Positions 33,899 to 48,584 of a stretch of 64,000 bases of DNA are shown here, piece after piece. The notes beneath the pieces are model-generated. The model did no database searches and was not told the DNA's origin. It saw nothing but the letters and a program-made list of their open reading frames with translations. The stretch is from Candidatus Nitrosocosmicus oleophilus (GTDB taxonomy: Archaea > Thermoproteota > Nitrososphaeria > Nitrososphaerales > Nitrososphaeraceae). The stretch is from the NCBI RefSeq assembly GCF_000802205.1, contig NZ_CP012850.1:2108001-2172000 (forward strand), written 5' to 3'. Positions within the stretch are counted from its first letter, which is position 1. Each line of letters starts with the position of its first letter. The position numbers were made by a program, and so were the translations under genes.

Positions 33899-33925
33899 AA
33901 AGAAAAGAATACGTGATTCTTTTTT

Positions 33926-34723
33926 TTGATTTCTATCATCCCGATACGCATTAATAAGAATATTGAACCAAACGACGACTTGTCAAAGGTAATTTTTGAG
34001 TCTGTACAATTGAACCAAATGCAGATCTGTGAAAATGACATTATCGTGGTGGCTCAAAAAATCGTTTCGAAATCAGAGAATAGGTTTAGGGATTTAAGGT
34101 ACGTTGCCCCTTCTCCAAAATCAATCCGATTGGCCAAATTGCACAATAAAGATCCACGATTGATTGAATTGATTTTAGGTGAAACTTCTAGAATTATAAG
34201 AATCACAAAAAAACATTTGATCGTTGAGACCAAACATGGATTTATTTGTGCTAATGCAGGGATAGATCAAAGTAATGTTTCTGGCGATTCTCAAATGGCA
34301 CTTTTACTACCGGAGAATCCTGATACTTCAGCAAGAAACCTGAGAAAATCAATGCACAATATTTCTGGAAAAAAAGTATGTATAATTATAGCCGATACAT
34401 TTGGCAGACCTTTCAGAACGGGTCAAACTAATGTTGCAATAGGGGTAGCGGGCATTGCCCCATTAAAAAGTTACATTGGAATGAATGATGAGTACGGTAA
34501 AAAATTATTAGTAACAGAAATTGCCATAGCAGACGAACTTGCGGCAGCCGCTGAACTTGTAATGGGTAAAACTTTAAAGAATCCTGTGGCTATAATACGT
34601 GGCTATGACCATCAAAATCTTTTGATAGAAGGTGACGACGATACTGGCATCAAGTCACTATTGCGCAGTGAACATGATGATTTATTTAGAAATCCAGAAA
34701 ATATGATGAATTACTCTGATTGA
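33926..34723 (+). CDS. cofE: Coenzyme F420-0:L-glutamate ligase
   Basis: Adds glutamates to F420-0 in a GTP-dependent manner. Typical segments are ENDIIVVAQKIVSKSENR, ILGETSRIIR, GFICANAGIDQSNV, IADTFGRPFRTGQTNVAIGVAG and KNPVAIIRGYDH. The start is TTG. It ends 52 bases before the remnant of meaB. It supports F420 use by the LLM-class oxidoreductase at 19.3 kb. Confidence 0.93.
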   Translation: MISIIPIRINKNIEPNDDLSKVIFESVQLNQMQICENDIIVVAQKIVSKSENRFRDLRYVAPSPKSIRLAKLHNKDPRLIELILGETSRIIRITKKHLIVETKHGFICANAGIDQSNVSGDSQMALLLPENPDTSARNLRKSMHNISGKKVCIIIADTFGRPFRTGQTNVAIGVAGIAPLKSYIGMNDEYGKKLLVTEIAIADELAAAAELVMGKTLKNPVAIIRGYDHQNLLIEGDDDTGIKSLLRSEHDDLFRNPENMMNYSD

Positions 34724-34775
34724 ATCAATAAAGGATTGCAAAATAATTTATTTCCAATTCTATCATCTCATCCCA

Positions 34776-35242
34776 ATGGATGATATTGTTGAAGGTATAC
34801 TAAATAAAAACAAAAGAATTATTGCACAATCCAATTCAATGATAGATGTTAAGGACCAATTATCCCCTGAAATACTAAGGAAAATATATCCAAAAACTGG
34901 GAAAGAGGTGACAATCGGATTCACAAGTCCTGCCGGTACAGGGAAGGGTACTCTTATTGGAAAACTGATTACTTATTTTGAAAATTTTGGTTTCAAGATA
35001 TCTATACTGGCAGTAGATCCTACAAGTGCTATCTCGGGAGGTGCTATTCTTGGCGACAGGGTCCGTATGCCTTCAACAATGGATGATGACAATATTTTCA
35101 TGAGGAGTTTAGGTTCAAGGGGTGCATCTGGTGGCATCTCTAAATCTTAAGAAATGTAATTGGCATATTGGATTTTGCAGGAAATGATCTTATTTTGGTG
35201 GAAAGCGTAGGAGCAGGGGAGTAAGAGGTAAAAATTTCATCC
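34776..35242 (+). pseudogene. meaB: Remnant of archaeal-type meaB (5' part)
   Basis: ATG 34776 opens a 124-codon frame clearly related to MeaB/ArgK GTPases: ILAVDPTSAISGGAILGDRVRM and MRSLGSRGASGG. It is broken in three ways. First, the P-loop reads SPAGTGKGT, having lost both the first Gly and the Ser after Lys. Second, a one-base loss at about 35146-35150 ends the frame; in the next frame homology continues as RNVIGILDFAGNDLILVESVGAGE. Third, a TAA at 35222 follows, then EVKISS, after which similarity ends. About half of a normal 320-residue MeaB is left. The G+C content is native-like (low), unlike the intact meaB at 37.2 kb. Confidence 0.85.
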
Positions 35243-35620
35243 ACTCAATTCCAGATCTTCCTAATATATCTTTTAGTTCTATTCGGTTTACATATTTGTA
35301 TAAAATATTATGAATCTTGTTTGCTAGTTTTGTCTTAGTTCGAGATAATATACTATTCTATAACTAAACTTCCTTTTTCTCTTAATTCTTTTATGGGTAA
35401 ACGCCTCGGATATCAAACCTGTGCTCAGCAGATAGGATAGTATACAGACACCATGTTAATCAGCCTTAATCTTTGCTTGTACTACTATATTTGTCTTTAC
35501 TGTATTTGCTAGTCTGTATATTTTCTCCAATAACTTCTAATGTATAATATGTATTCTCATACACAAGTTGTCCCTAGATTCCATTAATGCATTACATTTT
35601 TTCATTCTATGATAGGGTAT

Positions 35621-35749
35621 TCATTTAATTGGTTCTAGTATTCCATTCGAATTGTTACCAAAGTAGAACGCATCCAATTTCTTTCCTCTATCATCTTTTA
35701 GTGCTGGGCTAAAATTTTTCTTCTTAACATTTATTATAAGATGAATCAA
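35621..35749 (-). other. Coding-like 42-codon scrap, minus strand
   Basis: From TTG 35749 an open frame includes KKKNFSPALKDDRGKKLDAF, then YFGNNSNGILEPIK, ending in TGA. Residue composition looks protein-like and codon use matches native genes. It may be the 3' end of a lost gene or a tiny gene. No family is recognised. Confidence 0.25.
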
Positions 35750-35991
35750 TTTTTTCATTCATCTTCTTTCTTACTTCATGGTGGCAAAAAGAGGGTGGCA
35801 AACATCCATGCACTCACTCATTCACTCACCCGCCTACTATAGGAGTATTATGATAGCGCTTCAAGAGATCTGGTTCAATCCGAGCCTTGATCCTAAACGG
35901 AGAACTTTGAACGTAGCCAACATACGACAAAAGACAAACTCTTAATGACGTTCCTAATTTAGTAGATCAGTACCATGGCAAAAAAATTCGA

Positions 35992-36153
35992 CTAGTAATA
36001 AAAAACAGGACCACCGATCTTCTTTTTCCAATCTGAGTAAATACTTGAATTCCCTTTCAATTTTTCAACATAATTAGAAGCAGATGGACTACCAGCTGCA
36101 CCATTTCCACATACAGTAACAATTTGTTTGTATGGTATACTTATTGGTTTCAT
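35992..36153 (-). CDS. Possible 53-aa ORF, unknown
   Basis: ATG 36153 encodes MKPISIPYKQIVTVCGNGAA, followed by GSPSASNYVEKLKGNSS and a basic DWKKKIGGPVFYY end, closing with TAG. The region is otherwise non-coding and this frame has a natural amino-acid mix. There is an in-frame stop just upstream of the ATG, so it cannot extend. No family is recognised; it could be a remnant. Confidence 0.3.
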   Translation of the reverse strand: MKPISIPYKQIVTVCGNGAAGSPSASNYVEKLKGNSSIYSDWKKKIGGPVFYY

Positions 36154-36349
36154 TGATAGATTTTATAGCAATATTAGGAGCTAACACCATATTTTCTTTT
36201 CTTTCAATAGAAGATATTATACCTATCTCCTCCAAGGTTTATTCTCCTCTAGAAATTAGATAAACCTCCGATGCCCTCCTAGATTATGAAATTCCGGATA
36301 TTAAAAGAAACACACGTACTCCCACAGTTGCTGTTATCCGTCGAATAAA

Positions 36350-36600
36350 AGGGACATATATTTATCTACAATATTGCAATTCTTATTTGTAAATTGTTTT
36401 TCATTATCTACACCTAAATTGTTTGGTATCTTTTATGGTGTTTATACAACAGATACAGCAAAATATCCACAACGAAATGTTTTTACCTTTAACCACGATT
36501 CATCTTCTGAATTTTTTCGACTGTACCGTAAACCATTTCACCTTTTAATGTCAGAAATTGATCTTTGTAGAGTTTTGGTCAGCAGAGGACTACTAGACAT
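36350..36600 (-). pseudogene. Frameshifted, stop-riddled coding remnant, unknown
   Basis: On the minus strand one frame reads KDQFLTLKGEMVYGTVEK. It then passes, after a one-base shift, into NSEDESWLKVKTFRCGYFAV, which is cut by two stops (VV*TP*KIPNN) before continuing as LGVDNEKQFTNKNC. The continuity of protein-like sequence across shifts and stops suggests a dead gene. I cannot name it. Confidence 0.3.
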
Positions 36601-36679
36601 TCTTGTTCGTGGATAATTTTCTAATTTTGGAATCAAATTCGACTGGTCACCCAGATCTTTTATTTTTATTAATCATGAT

Positions 36680-36757
36680 ATTTATTATGGGGCGATAAAT
36701 ATTACTACAGAGGCCAGCTGGTCCTGTTTCAATAACTATTACCTCATATTCTTCAAA
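36680..36757 (-). pseudogene. N-terminal remnant of an FAD-dependent oxidoreductase
   Basis: The minus-strand frame FEEYEVIVIETGPAGLCSNI matches the start of FAD/NAD(P)-binding oxidoreductases such as geranylgeranyl reductases (family pattern YDVIVIGAGPAGL). The first Gly of the GxGPAG motif has become Glu, and similarity stops after about 25 residues. It lies about 100 bases left of the foreign block. Confidence 0.45.
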
Positions 36758-36853
36758 CACTGCTTAAAGACGCGAAAATTATAGTTGTTAGATTACACAT
36801 CCTTTTGATTTTGGATAGATTGATATCGATAGTAATTTCTAACTAGAGATTAT

Positions 36854-36863
36854 CTGACTCTAG
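36854..36863. repeat. Left copy of 10-bp direct repeat at foreign-block edge
   Basis: CTGACTCTAG, identical to the copy at 42420-42429. It sits about 10-20 bases outside the start of G+C-rich sequence. The wider left context, CTAGAG-ATTATCTGA-CTCTAG, is also an imperfectly spaced inverted repeat. Confidence 0.5.
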
Positions 36864-37211
36864 TATAATTCGGATATCAGTGTGCGAGGGTGATGCGCTC
36901 GGGCGAATAAGAGCGGTAAAAGTCGTTTCGTATCGCGGGAGGTGCATGATGGCTGGGGCCGACGTTGCATGTCAATGTGCGATCGACGCGGCGATCGGAC
37001 ACGGTCGTTCTGAGCATAGCGAAACAGTTCGTACTAGAGGGTATCCAGTTTGCGTCTTCGTCGCGCAGCTGAAGTTCAATCACTAATGGAGGCGACACCA
37101 ATAGCGATTGAGAGGGAGGTAGTCTGGATCTTTATGGTCAGTCACATTGAGTCGAACTAATGGCGTGACAGAACGCGGAACGATTTGGCCCGTGTCCAAC
37201 ACCGAACAAGC

Positions 37212-38213
37212 TCAGATCTGTTCCCGGCTGAAGATCGCTAGCAACTCATCCGCGGCAGCGCTCGATGTGGTCGTTCCGGCCTTCACAGCCTGCTCTAGGC
37301 GGGGAAGGGTCGCAGCAACGTCAGGGTGCTGGCGAAATGCATCCTCTAGGCGCTCGCGGATCAGTGTCCACATCCACGTGGACTGCTGGGCCGCTCGCAA
37401 CGAGGCAAGCTCCCCGGTGGACTCAAGTAACTGTCGGTGCTCGTCGATCGTGGTCCATAACTCATCGATACCCAGACCTGTAAGGCCCGACGCCGCAAGG
37501 CAGCGCGGCTGCCAGATTGCGCGCTTACGAGGTAGATAGCGCAGTGCGGACTTTAGATCCGCCAGTGCGACCTTCGCCCTATGCTCGCCATCTCCGTCGG
37601 CCTTGTTGACGACGAGTGCATCCGCGAGCTCAAAAACACCCTTCTTGATCCCTTGCAACTCATCGCCAGCACCCGGCAAGACAAGCACAAGAAAGAAGTC
37701 GACCATGTCGGCGACGGCCGTCTCGCCCTGTCCGACGCCGACAGTCTCGACGAGCACGACATTATAGCCGGCCGCCTCACAGAGTAACATCGTCTCGCGT
37801 GTACGGCGCGCCACGCCGCCGGGCGACAACCCACTCGGTGATGGCCTTACAAACGCGCGCGGATCAAGCGCGAGCCGCTGCATGCGTGTCTTGTCGCCGA
37901 GAATTGACCCACCCGAGAGCTGGCTCGTCGGATCGATCGCGAGCACCGCAACGCGATAACCAGCATCGAGAAGGCGCATTCCTAGATTGTCAATGAACGT
38001 GCTTTTCCCAACGCCTGGCACGCCAGTGATGCCAATGCGGTGCGCTCGGCCCGTACGCGGCAATACCTGCTGCAGGAGGTTGCGGGCAATCCGTCGATCC
38101 TCTTCAGAACGACTCTCGACGAGCGTGACAGCACGCGCTAACGTCCCTAGGTCACCTTCGATGATGCCGCGCTCGTACGAGTCGACCGAAAGTCGAGACG
38201 CACGAAAAGTCAT
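37212..38213 (-). CDS. meaB: Methylmalonyl-CoA mutase-associated GTPase MeaB (bacterial type)
   Basis: A G3E-family GTPase that loads and protects B12-dependent mutase. The P-loop GVPGVGKS is at 64-71, with the intact [45 protein letters not shown] and NKADGDGE motifs. At 333 aa it is full length. Its ATG overlaps the stop of mutB (38210-38212), and codon use matches mutA and mutB, so the three moved together. It stands in contrast to the broken AT-rich meaB at 34.8 kb. Confidence 0.93.
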
Positions 38214-40354
38214 GGTGGTAGCTCGAGACGGTCGAGCAATCGCACCGCGGCGTCGGCAATCACAGTGCCGGGTCCGAAGATCTCAACGGCGCCGGCCTCT
38301 CGCAGTGCATCATAATCGTCGGGCGGGATCACGCCTCCGACAACGACGAGTATATCGGGGCGACCAAGCGTTGAGAGCGCAGTGCGCAATGCAGGCACCA
38401 GAGTCAGGTGGCCGGCGGCAAGCGAACTCACGCCAATTACGTGCACGTCATTCTCAACGGCGGCGCGCGCGGTTTCCTCCGGAGTCTGGAACAACGGACC
38501 GATGTCAACATCGAAGCCGAAGTCCGCGAACGCCGATGCAATAACCTTTTGGCCTCGATCATGCCCGTCCTGTCCCATCTTCGAGATTAAAATACGCGGC
38601 CGGCGCCCCTTATGATCTAGGAACGTCTGTGTGCGAGCGCGCACGTGAGCGATCGCTTCGGATGACTCTCCAACCTCTCCACTGTACACGCCGGATATGG
38701 CTTGGATGTTCGCGCGATGGCGACCCCATACTTTCTCGAGCGCCCATGAGATTTCCCCGACCGTGGCCCTAGCGCGTGCCGCGTCGATCGCCAAGGCAAG
38801 CAGGTTGCCGGTGCCGGTCTCGGCGCACTTTGTCAGCGCTCCGAGGGCACGTGCCGTTGCTTCGTTGTCACGCTCCGAGCGCAGCTTCATAAGGCGTTCG
38901 ATCTGCGTCTTTCGAACGGCCGCATTGTCAACTTTCAGCACCGGGATCGATTCCTTGTGCATAAGTTTGTAGCAGTTCACACCTATGATCTTCTGACGGC
39001 CGCTGTCGATGCGAGCCTGAGTACGTGCAGCCGCTTCTTCGATGCGCAGCTTCGGGATGCCCGCCTCAAGGGCCTTCACCATGCCGCCGAGCTGTTCGAT
39101 CTCGGTGATGTGAGCTCTTGCACGCCGTGCGAGTTGGTCTGTCAGCCACTCCACGTAATAGCTCCCGCCCCACGGATCAACCGGCCTCGTCGTGTTCGAC
39201 TCGAGTTGCAGCTGGAGTTGGGTATTGCGCGCTATACGTGCTGAGAAGTCCGTCGGCAGAGCGAGCGCTTCGTCAAGCGAGTTCGTGTGTAGGCTTTGAG
39301 TGTGGCCTTGAGTCGCGGCCATCGCCTCTATGCAGGTGCGTACGACGTTATTATAAACGTCCTGCGCAGTCAGTGACCAGCCCGACGTCTGGCAGTGTGT
39401 ACGCAGCGCGAGGCTCTTCGTGCTCTTTGGGGCGAATGTCGAAACGATCTCAGACCAGAGAAGGCGAGCGGCCCTGAGCTTGGCAACCTCCATGAAGAAG
39501 TTCATGCCGATGGCAAAGAAGAACGACAGACGCGGCGCGAATGTGTCTATGCTCATGCCGGCTGCGATACCAGTGCGGAGGTATTCGAGGCCGTCGGCGA
39601 GCGTATAGCCGAGCTCGAGGTCCGCAGTCGCCCCTGCCTCCTGTAAGTGATACCCGGAGATCGATATTGAGTTGAACTTCGGCATCCGCTGGGACGTGAA
39701 CTCGAAGATGTCCGCAATTATCTTCATAGAAGGTGCGGGTGGATAGATGTACGTGTTCCGTACCATGTACTCTTTTAGGATGTCGTTCTGGATCGTACCG
39801 GATAACTTCTCCGGGGGTACTCCTTGCTCCTCCGCGGCGACGACGTAGAGCGCGAGCACCGGCAGGACGGCACCATTCATCGTCATCGACACGCTCATCT
39901 TGTCGAGTGGGATTCCATCGAATAGGATACGCATGTCGAGGATCGAGTCTATAGCCACGCCTGCCATACCGACGTCACCAACGACGCGCGGATGATCACT
40001 GTCGTAGCCGCGGTGGGTAGCGAGGTCGAACGCGATTGACAAACCCATCTGTCCAGCGGCGAGGTTCCGGCGGTAGAAGGCATTCGAGTCTTCAGCCGTC
40101 GAAAAACCGGCATACTGGCGCACGGTCCACGGCTTTTGTACGTACATGGTTGGGTACGGACCGCGTACGAACGGCGGAATGCCAGGCAACGAGCCGAGGT
40201 GCGCGACCTCCGTGAGGTCTGAAGAGGTATAGACTGCGTGATGTGGGATGTCCTCAGGTGTGTCCCAGATGCTGTCGGAACTGGCAGGCGCGGTTTTTCG
40301 CACTGCAGGCTCAATCTCGTCAAAGTCAATCTCATCAAATTTGGGCAGCGTCAT
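38210..40354 (-). CDS. mutB: Methylmalonyl-CoA mutase, large (catalytic) subunit, bacterial type
   Basis: Converts (R)-methylmalonyl-CoA and succinyl-CoA by a B12 radical mechanism. Residues 1-560 form the TIM-barrel substrate domain ([72 protein letters not shown]-like region). The C-terminal cobalamin domain has the DxHxxG axial-His motif DGHDRG at about 597 and a [11 protein letters not shown] end. Thaumarchaea normally split catalytic and B12-binding parts into separate proteins; here they are fused, as in bacteria. The start overlaps the mutA stop by 4 bases. Confidence 0.95.
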
Positions 40355-42069
40355 AACAACAGCTCCTCCATGGTGGCGAGCACATCGCAGCCAACAAACA
40401 CAAACGCTTCAACGCCAGCTGCACGAAGCTCGGTTTCGAGAGCGCCCGGACGCCCTGCGAGCACAACCTTCCTCACGCCGGCTGACTTCAGCGCGCGTGC
40501 GACTCCGGCGGCTTCAGCCGTGTAGCGCTCGTCGCTGCCACAAATCACGGCAACGTCGGCGCGTTGGGGCGAGGTCGCTTCGCGAGTGCGAATGCCAACG
40601 ATGCCAAACAGACCTGCTGAATAACTAATGCGAGCGCGATGCTCAGCCGGTGGCCCGAGCGCGAGCAGCATTACATCGAACGGCAGGGCTTCGATGCGAG
40701 CTCGCATCGCCTCAAACATCTCGGCATCACGATGCTCGACGAGCGCTGATGAAACCAGCAAGGGTGCGGTCGGGATCGGAGCCGCCGGCAGCTTCTCGCC
40801 GACGTGCGCGAACTCCGAGACACCGAGGACAGGTTCCTTGCGTTTCGCAAGATGGGCCGCTCGCCTGGTCCATGCCGCGTCAAGCCGCGCGCGCAGTGCG
40901 CCCGAACCGACGAGCTCGGTAATACCACCATCCTTCTCGATCGCGGTAAAACGCTTCCACGCCTCACGGGCGAGCGCATCGGTACGCGTCTCGATGTAAT
41001 AGCTGCCGCCGGCGGCATCGACGACTCGTCCGAGGTGGCTCTCGTCGCGCAATATGAGGACCGTGTTTCGGGCAACGCGGCGCCCGAGCGCGGACACTGC
41101 AGCGAGCTGGTCGTCGAACGGACGTGGGGTCACGATCTGCGCTCCACCAATGATCGCAGCGAACATCTCCGTTGTTACACGTAGCATGTTGACCCAAGGG
41201 TCGCGTTGTGTCTGCGTGCGTGAGGACGCGACGGCGTGGATCGGAGGTGGAGGCTCGTTTGGCGCGCCGGCAACCGCGAGCACTTTGTGCCAGAGCACGC
41301 GGGCCGCACGTATCTTGCATATTTCCCCGAAAGTGTCGCGACCGACAGGCAGCTGCAGCCACAGCGTGCGCGCGGCTTCTGTGATCGGCAGTCCTCCTGC
41401 AATGAGCGCGCGCAGATAAGCAACACCGGCCGAAAGGCCGAGTGCGAGCTCGTCGGCGGCATCGGCACCCGCGCTGTGTAAGATTGTCGTGGACACGCGC
41501 AGCGGCCGGGCGTTCGGCAGCCGCTCACGTGTATCAGAGACTAAGTTTGGAAGGTGAGACAATCGTTTTACGAGCGTGTTGCCCGGCGTCACTCCCTGGG
41601 CAACGGCCATAATCGGATCGATGTCAATCCAGATCCGCTTATCTACACCGCGTTGCGCGAGCCATTCGATAGCCTGCGCTGGGATGCTCTTTGCTATATC
41701 GACGACTAGATCAGCGTGCGCGACAGCCGCGGCCTCGAGCGCGCTGTCGTTGCCCACATCAATCCACAGCGCCGTCGCACCTCCATCGAGTTCCTCGGTA
41801 GCTACCGTGCGATCACCGTCTATACGTATGCACAGCCCAAACGCTGTGTTCTGTGCGTTGGCGCCCCGCACGTATGGTGCCATGCCTGGCATTGGCAGCT
41901 CGGCCGGCCGTTCGGTGTAGAGCGGGTCTATCGTTATGTCCTCAGGAGTGCGGTACACCAATTTGTCGAACGACGCTCCAGCGAGCTCTTTGTCGACGAG
42001 CGAGCGCCATGCTGCAAAATCTGACACGGACGACTCACCTATCGCGACGGCATTGACCGCCAACTTCAT
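40351..42069 (-). CDS. mutA: Methylmalonyl-CoA mutase, small subunit, bacterial type
   Basis: The non-catalytic partner of MutB in bacterial heterodimeric mutases. The N-terminal [25 protein letters not shown] is typical, as are [20 protein letters not shown] and [24 protein letters not shown]. The C-terminal B12-like domain lacks the DxHxxG histidine, as expected for this subunit, and ends [11 protein letters not shown]. At 572 aa it is slightly shorter than many MutA. The ATG at 42069 is the first start; family similarity begins about 15 residues later (VSDFAAW), so a GTG there is possible. It is the first gene of the three-gene operon. Confidence 0.93.
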
Positions 42070-42262
42070 AGAGTGTGTGCGACAGCTGATAGGGAGTGTT
42101 GATTTTGCTCGCCCCCGTCAACTGGGTGAGCAGGTTTTCGCAGTCGAAAGCATCATGGCGCACGTCGCTGGGAGCCGCTGCAGGGGTCTCCTCGTTGCTC
42201 TTCCAGAACTGGTCGCATGATGAGATTGTGTATTCCTTCTCGTCCATCATCGAACTCATCAC
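42035..42262 (-). CDS. Doubtful 75-codon ORF upstream of mutA
   Basis: A frame starting MMSSMMDEKEYTISSCDQFW overlaps the mutA start by 35 bases in another frame. It lies in the G+C-rich block, where long accidental frames are common. No family is recognised. It may be the truncated first gene of the donor operon or simply chance. Confidence 0.2.
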   Translation of the reverse strand: MMSSMMDEKEYTISSCDQFWKSNEETPAAAPSDVRHDAFDCENLLTQLTGASKINTPYQLSHTLYEVGGQCRRDR

Positions 42263-42390
42263 CTAAGAAGGGGTTGCATATTCAGCATGTCCTTGGGATT
42301 GAGGAACGTTCTGAGGCCAATGACGGGCATCGTCCCCTCGTTTTTGAAGGCCTCGCAGTACTGCGACTGTTCTTGGATCTCCGAGCACTA

Positions 42391-42528
42391 TTACTTGCAC
42401 TCCGTCGAACTGAGCATGGCTGACTCTAGAGATTTGGCCGTTTCAACAAAAGAACACTTTTTTTCTTCCTCGGGTATCCTTTGTTGGTTTTTGCAATTTA
42501 CATTTAACAAAATACAAGTTTCAGTCAT
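42391..42528 (-). other. 45-codon ORF spanning the right edge of the foreign block
   Basis: ATG 42528 is preceded at a good distance by AAGGAG. It encodes MTETCILLNVNCKNQQRIPE, then EEKKCSFVETAKSLES in native AT-rich style. It crosses the repeat CTGACTCTAG into foreign sequence (AMLSSTECK) and meets TAA-TAG. If the block is removed at the repeat, the frame would run only three more codons (DNL) to a stop. It is probably a native small ORF interrupted by the insertion. Confidence 0.3.
42420..42429. repeat. Right copy of 10-bp direct repeat at foreign-block edge
   Basis: CTGACTCTAG, identical to 36854-36863, lying exactly where G+C-rich sequence gives way to AT-rich sequence. Confidence 0.5.
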
Positions 42529-42529
42529 T

Positions 42530-43370
42530 TAAAATTCTCCTTAATTCCGTTTGTTTCAACATATCTATTGTTATTGTACGAGATGCCGTGACTAACGGTT
42601 ATTACACTAAATAAATTACGTGTGTTATCCTTAGATATTATTTGACTACATGATTCGCAAAATTGCATAATCAGATATATGTTAAGAATATATTTATATA
42701 TTGATATGCTTTGCTATTTTATAGGATAACTTTTATCATTTTCTTCCAATTATTTTCCAATTATTCTAACGTATATTTCAATAGAAAATTATGGCATGAT
42801 TATAATGAAATTTTGAGAGAACGGGAGTGTGTTCTAATCCATTTAGCTTTCTCCTGTAAGATTCATAATTTATCATAACTAAAAGTTCCTGACGCTCCCA
42901 AATCTCATTTTCCATACTAGATTTATTCGGTTAGTTTTCTTAGGGTTTATTTCACAAAAATCTGATGTAACCCAATAATCATTGTTATCATCATTACTAT
43001 TCATCATACTGTTTTTATGATTGTTATGTAACCGTCTCATAAGCAATTTAATCTTAATGAGAAAATGATTAAAGTGGTAGTCCGCCTTTTGTCTGCATCA
43101 TTATCAGATCTCGTTATTTTGTGTTTAGAAAATATATTATCTGTTTTTTTCTGTTTGTATTGATAGCAGAAGTAGCAGACCAACAAAATTAGAAATGTCT
43201 ATGCAGCATAAATTAACATACTAAGAATAAACAAATTAGAAATTATTAGGGCTTCAAGTTAACAAATTTGATTAGATATTAATTCAAAATTGAAAATTTG
43301 CTATGAGACAAAACAATGTACAAAAAGTTACTCTGAGTATCTCTTTTATCTTTTCATTGTAATCTTAGTT
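42530..43370. other. Gene-free AT-rich stretch
   Basis: About 840 bases with no frame, tRNA or repeat array that I can support. It contains the promoter region of the zinc-finger gene that follows. Scattered TATA-like strings are expected at this composition and are not called. Confidence 0.5.
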
Positions 43371-43925
43371 ATGAAAAAGAATTTTTACAAATGCAACGGC
43401 TGTGAACGCAAATTTGGACGAAAATGGAATGCACTACGTCATAGTAGGTCAATTCATAGTTCTGCTTCTGAAATCATTAGCAATAATATCAAGCCCAAAA
43501 CTTCGTACATATCAAATAACAAATACAATAGGTTTCAAAAGAAATTCGATATTCTCAATAAAGCCGGTATAGAGATATACAATGAATACGATGAAAACAT
43601 GTCAGACATTTTTGATATAGATGAAAAAGACTTTAAAATTATTAAAATTATTGATCAATTGATCAAACCGTTTACTGAATTAGAGGATTTATTGAGTAGA
43701 ACTGATCCTAAGACAAGAGCATTTGTTCTTACAAGAAGTTTCGATCAAAGCTTACGATCTCTCAATCCAGTGGAAGCCATGAATGAGATGGTCGAGTTGT
43801 TATGTTCAATAAAAGGCATCAAAAAGATTGCAAAGTATAGGTCAATGATTGCCACAACCTCCTCTTTGGATCCGATACTCGAAACAAAAGAAAAAATCAA
43901 GAATTCATATTTATTTGGAAGATAG
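43371..43925 (+). CDS. C2H2 zinc-finger protein, unknown role
   Basis: Starting at ATG 43371 gives 184 aa. The N-terminus is a classic C2H2 finger, FYKCNGCERKFGRKWNALRH, followed by SRSIH (C-x2-C-x12-H-x4-H). The rest is helical and charged, with an ELEDLLSRTDPKTRAFVLTR segment and no recognised domain. The longer upstream frame from 43290 would put a hydrophobic stretch before the finger and is unlikely. C2H2 fingers are uncommon in archaea but occur in soil thaumarchaea. It may be a DNA- or RNA-binding regulator. It appears intact inside the decayed region. Confidence 0.65.
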   Translation: MKKNFYKCNGCERKFGRKWNALRHSRSIHSSASEIISNNIKPKTSYISNNKYNRFQKKFDILNKAGIEIYNEYDENMSDIFDIDEKDFKIIKIIDQLIKPFTELEDLLSRTDPKTRAFVLTRSFDQSLRSLNPVEAMNEMVELLCSIKGIKKIAKYRSMIATTSSLDPILETKEKIKNSYLFGR

Positions 43926-44061
43926 AATAATTAGAAAATGAAGACTAAACCCCAATCTGCTTTCCAGAATTCAGCACTGGGTTAGGATTTAATCTTGAAA
44001 AACTGATAGAATTGATAATTTTTTGTATTTATAATGACAAAATTTCCTTCAGGAAATATAA

Positions 44062-44376
44062 GAATGGGGATTGGATTCCAGACAGATTACTAATTCTGAA
44101 ATCGAAAAATTTGACCCTGACAAAATAATTATCGCACCTTGCGGATATGATCTAGATTGAAAACAGAAAGATTACAAACGTCTAACTGTGCCCTAGTGGA
44201 AATCGGTTAAGGGTTTCAAAAATAAGCAGATTTATTTGGTTGATTCCAATTCTTATTTTTGTAAGCCTAGTCCAAGAATCATAACGGGGATGGAAATTTT
44301 GCCCTCAATAATACATCCCGATATATTTCGACGTATGAACATTCATGAAAGGTCCTTTATAATTGTCGATAAATGA
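44062..44376 (+). pseudogene. BtuF-like cobalamin/siderophore-binding protein remnant
   Basis: One frame reads EWGLDSRQITNSEIEKFDPD, then KIIIAPCGYDLD, a TGA stop (44158), KQKDYKRLTVP, a TAG stop (44194), and WKSVKGFKNKQIYLVDSNSY, FCKPSPRIITGMEILPSIIH, PDIF. The PCGxDL and YFxxPxPRhhxGhEhLxxhhHP patterns are those of ABC-type cobalamin-binding proteins. Two in-frame stops and no recognisable N-terminal half mark it as dead. Its likely ligand, B12, is the cofactor of the mutase locus it lies in. Confidence 0.7.
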
Positions 44377-44921
44377 ATTAATCTTTGGAGTAAGTTGTCC
44401 GTCATAAAACAATGTGGGAAGATGAAAAAATTCCTACTTCTTGATTAACTAATGCGATAAAAATCAATTGTATATAGATTCTACCCATCTCTAACTATCA
44501 TCTAATTGATCCTTCAATTAAATTTGGATAGTTTATCTAAAGATTTCATAAATTCACATGATCAAATATTCTATTCAATGAAAATTAAGATTAATTCATG
44601 GAGATATATTAATCATATGTTATTTTTAGCTATGGTCATTTCACATCATATCGTTGAGAGCAAACATTCTATAATTCAGTTTGGTGATGACAAGACGGAT
44701 GGTTTGTTGTTACCTAATTCAGTATTTAACATTCCATTGCGTACCAAAATCTTATTCCTGAGTTCATGGCCCATTCTTTTTTTTAATATAGTTAGAATCT
44801 TGTTTGGATTTCATTGACCAACTCACCTTTTTCTTCAATGCATTTTCAGGAAGGTAGTCCGAGCCAGCGGTGAAAGGAATATGGTGTAGACAGTATGACA
44901 ATTTCATGAGGGATTGCGTTT
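44377..44921. other. Degenerate stretch between remnants
   Basis: About 545 bases. One TTG-started frame of 103 codons (44506-44817) is open, but its make-up looks like translated AT-rich noise and no family fits, so I do not call a gene. Nothing else is seen. Confidence 0.4.
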
Positions 44922-45155
44922 ATGTCCCACATTAATGAAATGATGACTTTGTTCCTTGTATGCAGTTCATGCTGGATAAGAATAAATATTTCGTCACGAT
45001 TCCATCTTTCGTCCTTATTATCGGCAGCTGAAAAACAAGATGTTAATTTGATACCTTATCTAATATCCTGTGTTAAAAACAAGGTGACCCTTGGCGAAAT
45101 TAAAGACACATTCAAAGAGATTTTTGGGATCTATGTACCAAAAATCTCCTTTTGA
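44922..45155 (+). pseudogene. 3' remnant of archaeal methylmalonyl-CoA mutase large subunit
   Basis: The last 45 or so codons read SSLLSAAEKQDVNLIPYLIS, then CVKNKVTLGEIKDTFKEIFG and IYVPKISF, ending in TGA at 45153. This matches the C-terminus of methylmalonyl-CoA mutase catalytic chains (family pattern NLhPhhhxxVKxxxTLGEIxxxhRxhFGxY), without a fused B12 domain, as in archaeal large subunits. Upstream of about 44990 the similarity fades into unrelated frames. Composition is native AT-rich. It is the best sign that the native mutase gene once occupied this locus. Confidence 0.75.
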
Positions 45156-45166
45156 ATGTTCATCTC

Positions 45167-47029
45167 TTATTCATCTTTACTCTCATATAGTTTCAGAGAA
45201 TCTTGATTGTTACTCATAATTGTGTTGAATACTTTTCTTCCGACTTCTGACTTTTTGTCTAATTTTAATTTGGCTTTCTGTCCAATTTGATTGCTTACTA
45301 GTGCCTCATCTCCTAAAAATAGATTAACCTTTTTTCCTATATGCATTTCATCAACTAACAAGTAAATCCTTGATCCAGATTCGGCGATACTAAATGCAAC
45401 TTCATTACCAATGAGAGGAACCTTCGCTTCAACATCGATCTTAACTCCCAGCATTTTTTCTATTTCTGATATGGTCGAACCTCCTCTTCCGATTATTCTG
45501 GGAATTACATCTTTACTAACTAGTATTCTTATCTTATCACTGGAAATAATCTTTACTTCAGCCTTAGGGTCAAATTTGCCTATAACTTCTCTTATTTTGG
45601 ATTCTGCTAATTTATTGATCTTATTGTTTCTTTCTTTATCGGTCTTTTTTTCGATATTTTTCAGAGGGATTATGATGTTTTCTTCTCCATAAGAGTAAAT
45701 TTCATACTCAGTTTCTTTTGAAAAAAAGTCTCTGATTTCCACCACTGGCCTAGCAAGGTCCTGTTCAACCATTCCTGCTGGGACTTTAACTGTCAAGTTT
45801 AATTCATATATTTTTTCAATCTTGCCTCCATGAATAAATATTACTGTGTCTATTACATGAGGTATCATACCTAATTCTATCTTGCCTATAAATCGTTGAA
45901 TTGCATCCAACGCTTCGTTAGCATGGATTACTCCTATCATGCCGATACCCGTAAGTCTCAGGTCTGCGAATAATTCAAAATCCTTTATCCGCCTCACCTC
46001 ATCAAAGATGGTAAAGTCTGGTCTAACAAGTAATAGAAGGTCTGCAACCCTTTCATACCCGTTTTTAAAAGAACCATATTGTACTACATTCTCTGGCACT
46101 TGCAGATCTCTTGGCGATTCAAGAGTCTTGACGAGTTTATTATTTTGCACGTAATGTTCGGCGATACTGCTTGCAAATGTACTCTTGCCCGAACCCGGTC
46201 TCCCAGCTATCAAAATTCCCTCTGCCTCTTCTGATAGCCTATTTATTAATGATAAATCTAATTGGTATTCTTGCAATGTCAATTTCTTTATCGGTCTGAC
46301 TGCAGTAATTTCTATTTTGTTTGATACAGGTGGTTGAGTTATGACAATTCTCAAGTTCTTGTACATTATTACATAACATCCATCAAATGAAATTTCTATA
46401 TTTGATATTTTCTTGTTGTTTTCAGTAGAAAATAGGAAATTCATGATTTCATTTAAAGTCTGTTTATCCAATTTAGTGTCAGATATTTTCTCCAATGTAA
46501 ATTCTCCAGGAGTACCCTTCTTTGCTAAGGGTTCTACCCCTTCTATCAAATGAACGCTCATTGATTTATCGTCAAAGTAATTTTCGATATTAAAAGATGC
46601 TGAGACCTGGGAGCGGATGTGAACGCTTGATATTCCAGTTGCGCTAGCTGCTAAATGTTGTATGTAATCAGCGGTAAATAAAGTCGCATCCTCTTTTTCA
46701 GCTATTTCGTTAATATTTGAATCAATTCTGCCATTCTTGGCTAGTTTTATGTCCTCAAGATTGGGCTTTTCCCCGTAAATTCTGAGCGAAATATTATTCT
46801 CGCTAGATTTTTCTCTAATCTTTCTTAGTTCTTCAAGCCCTATGAACCCTTGTTCTCTCTGCTTACATGCCTGTGATTGCAGCTCATCAATTGCAGCACG
46901 AGGAATTATTATCTCAAAATTATCATCAATATCCTTTTCATCAATTTTATGACTTATATGGCCATCTATTATGATACTCGTATCTAAAACAATTTTTTTC
47001 TTCAAATTGACTATGATCAGATCAATCAC
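45167..47029 (-). CDS. PIN-domain/PilT-type ATPase with KH domain (PINc-VapC ATPase)
   Basis: A conserved archaeal fusion protein. The N-terminal PIN nuclease has VLDTSIIIDGH and TADYIQHLA (acidic residues). A PilT/VirB11-like ATPase follows with GRPGSGKST, a Walker B region TIFDEVRRIKDF and GVIHANEALDAIQRF. The C-terminal KH domain has VIPRIIGRGGSTISEIEKMLG. It is presumed to bind and process RNA. The open frame reaches 47083, but family similarity starts at KKKIVLDTS, so GTG 47029 or TTG 47005 are likelier starts. It converges on the mutase remnant. Confidence 0.9.
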   Translation of the reverse strand: MIDLIIVNLKKKIVLDTSIIIDGHISHKIDEKDIDDNFEIIIPRAAIDELQSQACKQREQGFIGLEELRKIREKSSENNISLRIYGEKPNLEDIKLAKNGRIDSNINEIAEKEDATLFTADYIQHLAASATGISSVHIRSQVSASFNIENYFDDKSMSVHLIEGVEPLAKKGTPGEFTLEKISDTKLDKQTLNEIMNFLFSTENNKKISNIEISFDGCYVIMYKNLRIVITQPPVSNKIEITAVRPIKKLTLQEYQLDLSLINRLSEEAEGILIAGRPGSGKSTFASSIAEHYVQNNKLVKTLESPRDLQVPENVVQYGSFKNGYERVADLLLLVRPDFTIFDEVRRIKDFELFADLRLTGIGMIGVIHANEALDAIQRFIGKIELGMIPHVIDTVIFIHGGKIEKIYELNLTVKVPAGMVEQDLARPVVEIRDFFSKETEYEIYSYGEENIIIPLKNIEKKTDKERNNKINKLAESKIREVIGKFDPKAEVKIISSDKIRILVSKDVIPRIIGRGGSTISEIEKMLGVKIDVEAKVPLIGNEVAFSIAESGSRIYLLVDEMHIGKKVNLFLGDEALVSNQIGQKAKLKLDKKSEVGRKVFNTIMSNNQDSLKLYESKDE

Positions 47030-47083
47030 CAGATTCTTAAAAAAGGTTACTAAGTGGAAGATATAACAAATAACATTGATCAC

Positions 47084-47571: not shown

Positions 47572-48584
47572 ATCCAATCTGCTTTGTCGCCTAACTCAAC
47601 ATATTTAGCTGGAATGAACAGATTGATTATTTGTGATAGACTGGCCCTCTTACAATCGCTCATTAGTTCAACGCGGTGAGATCCTCTTCTCGTATGATTT
47701 CCTTGATGGTTGGGGTTCAGAGATAGAGAATATGAATATAAACAAAAAGGGTAAACCATTTGTATTTCCAGATTCTTTCATCTTGGCCATTGGTTACATT
47801 CGCTATTTATTTCACCTACCATACAGACAAACCCAAGGTATAATTAAGGCCACAGGAAAAAGGTTACCTGCTAATCCACCAAGTTATGGTCACATCTGTA
47901 AACGAATCAACAAGCTAAACATCGATATTAAAAGAGACAAGATGGATGACGATGATGACCTAATAATATCAATAGACAGTACAGGTATCAAGATTACTAC
48001 CAGAGGTCAGTGGATGGATGAGAAATGGAATACACAAAATAGAAAAGGATATCTCAAGATCCACGTTGCTGTAGACATAAAGACCAGGAAAATCATTGCT
48101 TTGGAAGTGACAGATGAGAAGGTACATGATGGGAAAATGCTAAAGAAACTAGTCAATCATGTTTTGGATTCGAGAGAACCAAACACTGTAAAGATAAAAT
48201 CGGTACTAGCTGATGGAGCCTATGATTCAAATCCAAACTTTGTGTATCTTGAGGACAAAAAGATCAATCCAGGTATAAAGGTAAGAAGGAACTCTATTGT
48301 TTCTCCTAAAAACAATAGGTTAAGGAACAACGAAGTAAAGTTACAAGCAAAGGATCTGTTGAAATGGAAGACAAAAAGAAAATACGGACAGAGATGGATA
48401 TCTGAAACTGTGTTCTCAGCTATAAAGAGAATGTTTGGTGAATACACATCAGCAAACAGGTTTCAAAACATGGTAAAGGAGATCATGATAAAAGTATCAT
48501 TGTATAACATTTTTAGAAGAATATAACATGATGATCATGATGATAACCGGAGAATAAGGAATTATGCAACAAAGCAGATCCAAT
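47572..48584 (+). mobile_element. IS5-type insertion sequence with terminal inverted repeats
   Basis: Ends match as inverted repeats. The left end is CTGCTTTGTCGCCTAA (47579-47594) and the right end, read inward, is CTGCTTTGTTGCATAA (48577-48562), 14 of 16 identical. Both ends are flanked by the direct repeat ATCCAAT (47572-47578 and 48578-48584), a likely 7-bp target duplication. The body is 999 bp with one transposase. Intact ends and an intact frame suggest a recent insertion. Confidence 0.85.
47633..48526 (+). CDS. IS5-family DDE transposase
   Basis: A 297-aa transposase. The catalytic triad is visible in SIDSTGIK (first Asp), VLADGAYDSNPN (second Asp) and SETVFSAIKRMFGEY (Glu). The N-terminal DWPSYNRSLVQRGEIL and the HLPYRQTQGI region are typical of archaeal IS5-group enzymes. 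The start is GTG. The frame is complete, with no stops or shifts, so the element may be active. Confidence 0.92.
   Translation: MIDWPSYNRSLVQRGEILFSYDFLDGWGSEIENMNINKKGKPFVFPDSFILAIGYIRYLFHLPYRQTQGIIKATGKRLPANPPSYGHICKRINKLNIDIKRDKMDDDDDLIISIDSTGIKITTRGQWMDEKWNTQNRKGYLKIHVAVDIKTRKIIALEVTDEKVHDGKMLKKLVNHVLDSREPNTVKIKSVLADGAYDSNPNFVYLEDKKINPGIKVRRNSIVSPKNNRLRNNEVKLQAKDLLKWKTKRKYGQRWISETVFSAIKRMFGEYTSANRFQNMVKEIMIKVSLYNIFRRI

Follow-up and report, generated by a model that had tools for sequence, protein, structure and literature searches.

A relic of the native archaeal methylmalonyl-CoA mutase beside a myxobacterium-like operon that has probably displaced it in Candidatus Nitrosocosmicus oleophilus

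The stretch of DNA analyzed here (64,000 nucleotides from Candidatus Nitrosocosmicus oleophilus; referred to as the window, and its genome as G000) contains an open reading frame (ORF) of 77 amino acids at 44922-45155(+). A sequence-only reading had proposed that this ORF ends in the last 45 codons of an archaeal-type methylmalonyl-CoA mutase large subunit. Related Nitrosocosmicus genomes are designated G002, G003 (Ca. Nitrosocosmicus sp. SS), G006, G007, G010, G012, and G013. Among the reading frames of related genomes, the best match to the C-terminal part of the ORF was the intact native mutase large subunit (McmL) of G012 (81% amino acid identity over 58 residues; E 2e-26), and the match reached the last residue of both proteins. 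The best matches were intact native large subunits of the genus, with no unrelated family. At the nucleotide level, 45009-45152 was 89.6% identical to G012 over 144 bp, up to the native stop codon, and the bases 3' of the stop could be aligned to G012 as well; the tail DNA was 88% and 86% identical to that of G006 and G010, respectively, and 45 of its 48 encoded residues were identical to those of G012. The NCBIfam model TIGR00641 matched the ORF at its C-terminal end (profile positions 478-525 of 528; E 2.8e-8), and the Pfam MM_CoA_mutase match fell below threshold (14.0 bits; profile positions 476-512 of 512). A reversed-window control gave no match better than E 6.

Homology to the native gene begins near 45007-45009. 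The remainder of the ORF, from 44922 to about 45007, is unrelated to mutase and reads antisense to the remains of a tyrosine-recombinase gene (44682-45019, minus strand); the start of the ORF at 44922 is without meaning. On the evidence of these alignments, we assign 45009-45152(+) to the 3' end of the gene for the native large subunit of the archaeal split mutase, of which it comprises the final 48 codons (45009-45155 with the stop codon), so the proposed 45 codons were nearly exact. By itself, the tail is an ordinary gene relic.

At the loci read in native-mutase Nitrosocosmicus species, meaB and then mcmL come after a cofE-like gene, and mcmL is convergent with a PIN-ATPase gene. The gene for the B12 small subunit is unlinked to meaB-mcmL, and the spacing between the meaB and mcmL frames was 3 to 10 bp in eight loci. 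The window retains both flanks of this arrangement. cofE lies at 33917-34720, and the PIN-ATPase-KH gene, assigned from the ORF list, synteny, and Pfam, lies at 45167-47083(-), directly beyond the mcmL tail. The mcmL relic thus sits where the gene is found in relatives, between cofE and the PIN-ATPase gene. At the other end, a 5' relic of native meaB was found at 34776-35239(+) by nucleotide match, PF03308, alignment, and codon-position counts. It has a frameshift near 35147 and an altered P-loop; the segment 34710-35239 was 84% identical to meaB of G012 at the nucleotide level, and PF03308 matched 34710-35147 with an E value of 5.5e-30. The interior of native meaB-mcmL is missing from the window, and a foreign operon stands in its place. 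No further pieces of mcmL were found between 35240 and 45007 or in a search of the window.

These observations agree with the remaining claims of the earlier reading. The frame had been said to end without a B12 domain, in the archaeal split arrangement; in relatives, the intact native large subunits (about 530 amino acids) end at the stop of the tail, and the B12 subunit is a separate gene. The statement that the tail belongs to no intact gene also held, with no intact native copy elsewhere in this one-contig genome. Finally, the tail and the 5' meaB relic are both on the plus strand, bearing out the proposal that the locus once encoded the native enzyme in the orientation opposite to that of the foreign operon, and the expected synteny, with the mutase beside the PIN-ATPase gene, was present in the native-mutase species whose locus was read.

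Relics of mobile elements and other genes surround the breakpoints. An IS110-type transposase relic at 35211-35785(-), detected by tblastn with intact copies from the genus (E 3e-28; the copy matched Pfam DEDD_Tnp_IS110), abuts the meaB break. It is followed by a thioredoxin-reductase-like pseudogene at 35995-36754(-), which is spread over several frames (tblastn E 3e-21; Pyr_redox_2 on intact copies). Across the operon from these two lies the relic of a BtuF-like periplasmic-binding-protein gene at 44068-44373(+) (tblastn E 1e-35; Peripla_BP_2 on an intact copy). The tyrosine-recombinase-like relic that abuts the mcmL tail was detected by tblastn (E 7e-20), and an intact copy gave a weak match to Phage_integrase; the gene is multicopy in the genus, and a short related fragment lies at 42850-42915. 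A 211-amino-acid ORF with a weak C2H2 zinc-finger match is found at 43290-43925(+), in the stretch that separates the operon from the mutase tail. A transposase with a DDE domain (PF01609) is located at 47633-48526(+), just past the PIN-ATPase gene.

The foreign operon occupies 37212-42069(-) and has a GC content of 0.61, versus 0.37 for the window. It is comprised of mutA (40351-42069), mutB (38210-40354), and meaB (37212-38213), all on the minus strand. MutB, the predicted catalytic subunit, carries a fused B12 domain, scored 1,279 bits against the equivalog NF006944 (cutoff, 876), and exceeded the cutoff of TIGR00640. Its full length could be aligned with solved mutases, and its catalytic and B12-ligand motifs, among them DGHDRG, are present and align with the solved large subunit 6oxc. 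MeaB exceeded the cutoff of NF006958. MutA scored 353 bits against TIGR00642, below the curated cutoff of 617; its assignment is based on its placement with Myxococcota mutA in the tree and on the operon order. Upstream of mutA are a 45-codon ORF at 42391-42528(-), equal in length in G007 and G003, and an AT-rich leader with a TATA-like stretch at 42529-42820(-), which is 76% identical to that of G007 and 73% identical to that of G003 and is conserved only in the three genomes that carry the foreign operon. The 45-codon ORF is preceded by a GGAG motif. No cobalamin riboswitch or other Rfam RNA was detected in 35000-46000 at E values up to 1.

The closest relatives found for the operon come from Myxococcota and have their genes in the same order. 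A mutA tree of 39 rows places the three archaeal copies in one clade (support, 100/100) beside the Myxococcales genome UBA2376, to which the window proteins are 84% (MutB), 70% (MeaB), and 55% (MutA) identical. This nesting within the Myxococcota points to a myxobacterium-like donor. Among the three species, mutB has a dN of 0.04 to 0.055 and a dS above 1.3, indicating strong purifying selection. The genome of the window is a single contig of 3.43 Mb, in which only the foreign pair matches PF01642 and no other mutase gene is present. For the methylmalonyl-CoA mutase step, this genome offers no candidate other than the foreign enzyme.

The gene for the B12 small subunit, which is unlinked to the locus, also has decayed. 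Eleven native-mutase species retain it as an open reading frame, and G003 and G007 lack it. In the window genome (C1:2302931-2303305), the start codon has been lost and the N-terminal frame is broken, and the gene is otherwise nearly intact. The copy in G013 (C1:33958-34326), the sister of G000 (93% nucleotide identity over 3.4 kb), has six in-frame stops. No mutase gene was found in the G013 draft, which is 84% complete and does not include the meaB-mcmL locus. Decay of the small subunit would be expected if it were no longer needed, because the foreign MutB carries its own B12 domain.

In order to assess the timing of decay, differences were counted by codon position, with G012 as the reference for the meaB relic and the mcmL tail. 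The meaB relic differs at 18, 11, and 27 of 130 codons at positions 1, 2, and 3, whereas intact meaB copies show 3 to 4, 1 to 3, and 27 to 29 differences, respectively. This excess of position 1 and 2 changes indicates that constraint on the relic has been lost. The mcmL tail differs at just 1, 1, and 13 of 48, and at positions 1 and 2 combined it is significantly less changed than the meaB relic (2/96 versus 29/260; P = 0.005). The small subunit is likewise lightly decayed (8, 7, and 41 of 125). Since the mcmL tail is less decayed than the meaB relic, the two breaks may not be a single event. Most simply, meaB would have died first and both mutase subunits afterwards, an order drawn from few codons (48).

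Displacement at this locus is not confined to the window genome. Among 300 genomes of the class, foreign mutA was found only in G000, G003, and G007, and 70 genomes of the family added none. G003 and G007 have the foreign operon only, in the same place and orientation as in G000, and no relics of native meaB or mcmL were found at their loci. A species tree built from 13 flanking proteins pairs G000 with G012 and G007 with G002 as sisters, and G003 forms a separate branch, all amid native-mutase species. In the operon tree, the three operons form one clade inside the Myxococcota (100/100), within which G000 groups with G007 (92/93). A grouping of the G003 and G007 operons was rejected (AU test, P = 0.007); one of the G000 and G003 operons was not (P = 0.12). 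The rejection conflicts with vertical descent, because the G003-G007 grouping is the one expected from plain inheritance. The conflict between the trees is moderate, and the rows differ in composition. Per-gene trees of the flanking genes gave no affinity of the kind that exchange between G000, G003, and G007 would produce. Together, the tree conflict and the identical place and orientation favor a single acquisition from a bacterium, with later transfer from species to species.

Other explanations were weighed against this reading. The few changes at first and second codon positions in the mcmL tail would fit a short functional gene, built from the mutase C terminus and encoded by the 77-codon ORF. 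This candidate was dropped because the first part of the ORF is the antisense of the recombinase relic; the ORF also lacks the catalytic and B12 parts, no ORF of this kind was found in other genomes, and we regard the idea as very improbable. An artifact of assembly or binning, in which the operon is contamination and the organism retains an intact native gene, would account for the sharp GC step on either side of the operon. It is very hard to reconcile with a one-contig genome that is 99.75% complete, with two other assemblies of the same arrangement, with an unlinked small subunit that has decayed or gone in step, and with a GC bias that has been partly and rapidly lost within the hosts, and we give it practically no credence.

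The two remaining alternatives concern how three species came to share the operon, and both are unlikely. In one, a single ancestral acquisition was followed by coexistence of both systems through the genus and then by differential loss. The operon copies are indeed almost as diverged as the flanking genes (third-position identity of 0.51 to 0.59 versus 0.45 to 0.47 for G000 and G007), and the native relics in G000 are fresh, as if coexistence had lasted until recently. No genome with both systems is known, however, and about six losses of the operon would be required. These losses would need precision, as the G000 operon lies between the meaB and mcmL parts and the native species have both genes adjacent and scarless. 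The vertical grouping also was rejected. Slightly less likely again are three independent acquisitions of related bacterial operons, each displacing the native genes at the same locus. The presence of the operon in three non-sister lineages and the GC content at third codon positions of mutB (0.69, 0.58, and 0.49), as if residence times differ, are compatible with such a history, but the three operons form one clade with full support (100/100) and no sampled bacterium within it, all three share the AT-rich leader and the small ORF of equal length, and the same place and orientation are unlikely to have been hit three times by chance.

The reading that we prefer, and hold to be highly probable, is that native meaB-mcmL was displaced in situ by a once-acquired myxobacterial operon, which moved between species and now most likely serves CO2 fixation. 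The operon would have been taken up once from a myxobacterium-like donor, then linked to the AT-rich leader, and then, we infer, spread between Nitrosocosmicus species into the same locus. In the lineage of the window, native meaB would have been broken beside the IS110 relic and mcmL beside the tyrosine-recombinase relic, with the interior lost, and the unlinked B12 small subunit would have decayed afterwards. The most recent displacement is likeliest to be that in the window genome. With somewhat better than even confidence, we further suggest that species of the genus trade native meaB-mcmL and bacterial mutA-mutB-meaB at this single locus, the mutase behaving as a swappable cassette, and that the window genome has been caught soon after a swap.

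Ammonia-oxidizing archaea depend on a CO2-fixation cycle that is regarded as one of their core traits, and methylmalonyl-CoA mutase catalyzes one of its steps. The bacterial enzyme most likely performs the conversion of methylmalonyl-CoA to succinyl-CoA in this cycle (the 3-hydroxypropionate/4-hydroxybutyrate cycle), together with its own MeaB. An enzyme of bacterial origin and of another subunit architecture most likely took over the step at a single locus in three Nitrosocosmicus lineages. Taken with its surroundings, the mcmL tail documents that a central autotrophic enzyme was replaced in situ, an event seen three times in the genus, and the fossils in the window show which way the change went and give it a relative date. 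A cross-domain swap of such an enzyme without loss of autotrophy thus becomes testable, and core-gene lists compiled from orthologues may miscount the mutase step.

The genome very probably is that of strain MY3, for which a size of 3.43 Mb is given in a passage of PMC6657660. In passages of three RT-qPCR studies of MY3 (PMC6775971, PMC6863869, and PMC11559005), a "methylmalonyl-CoA mutase large subunit" served as a CO2-fixation reference gene and was detected; one of them gives the gene tag MY_02370. If G000 is MY3, the gene detected is the foreign one, and the CO2-fixation reference mutase of this strain is probably a bacterial gene. The passages of the MY3 and genus literature available to us mention neither a bacterial origin nor the loss of a native gene. 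No publication reporting a replacement of the mutase was found in a literature search, with supplements and subscription papers outside its reach.

The locus can be compared with three known systems. The relic represents the last 48 codons of the approximately 530-amino-acid subunit of the archaeal split methylmalonyl-CoA mutase of ammonia-oxidizing archaea. In relatives, the gene is whole and has meaB and the PIN-ATPase gene as its neighbors, whereas the large subunit, the small subunit, and MeaB all are broken in the window genome. The foreign genes resemble the bacterial MutA-MutB-MeaB operon of Myxococcota in gene order, domain make-up, and sequence. Unlike that operon, the window copy has an AT-rich archaeon as its host, follows an AT-rich leader, and has lost part of its GC bias. 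Xenologous gene displacement in situ is the process by which an acquired gene takes the place of a resident orthologue. The present case is alike in that the foreign genes stand in the native place and the native copy has been lost from the same locus. It differs in that a three-gene system of another subunit architecture is involved, in inverted orientation and in three non-sister species of one genus, and in that the relics of both native ends are still readable in one genome.
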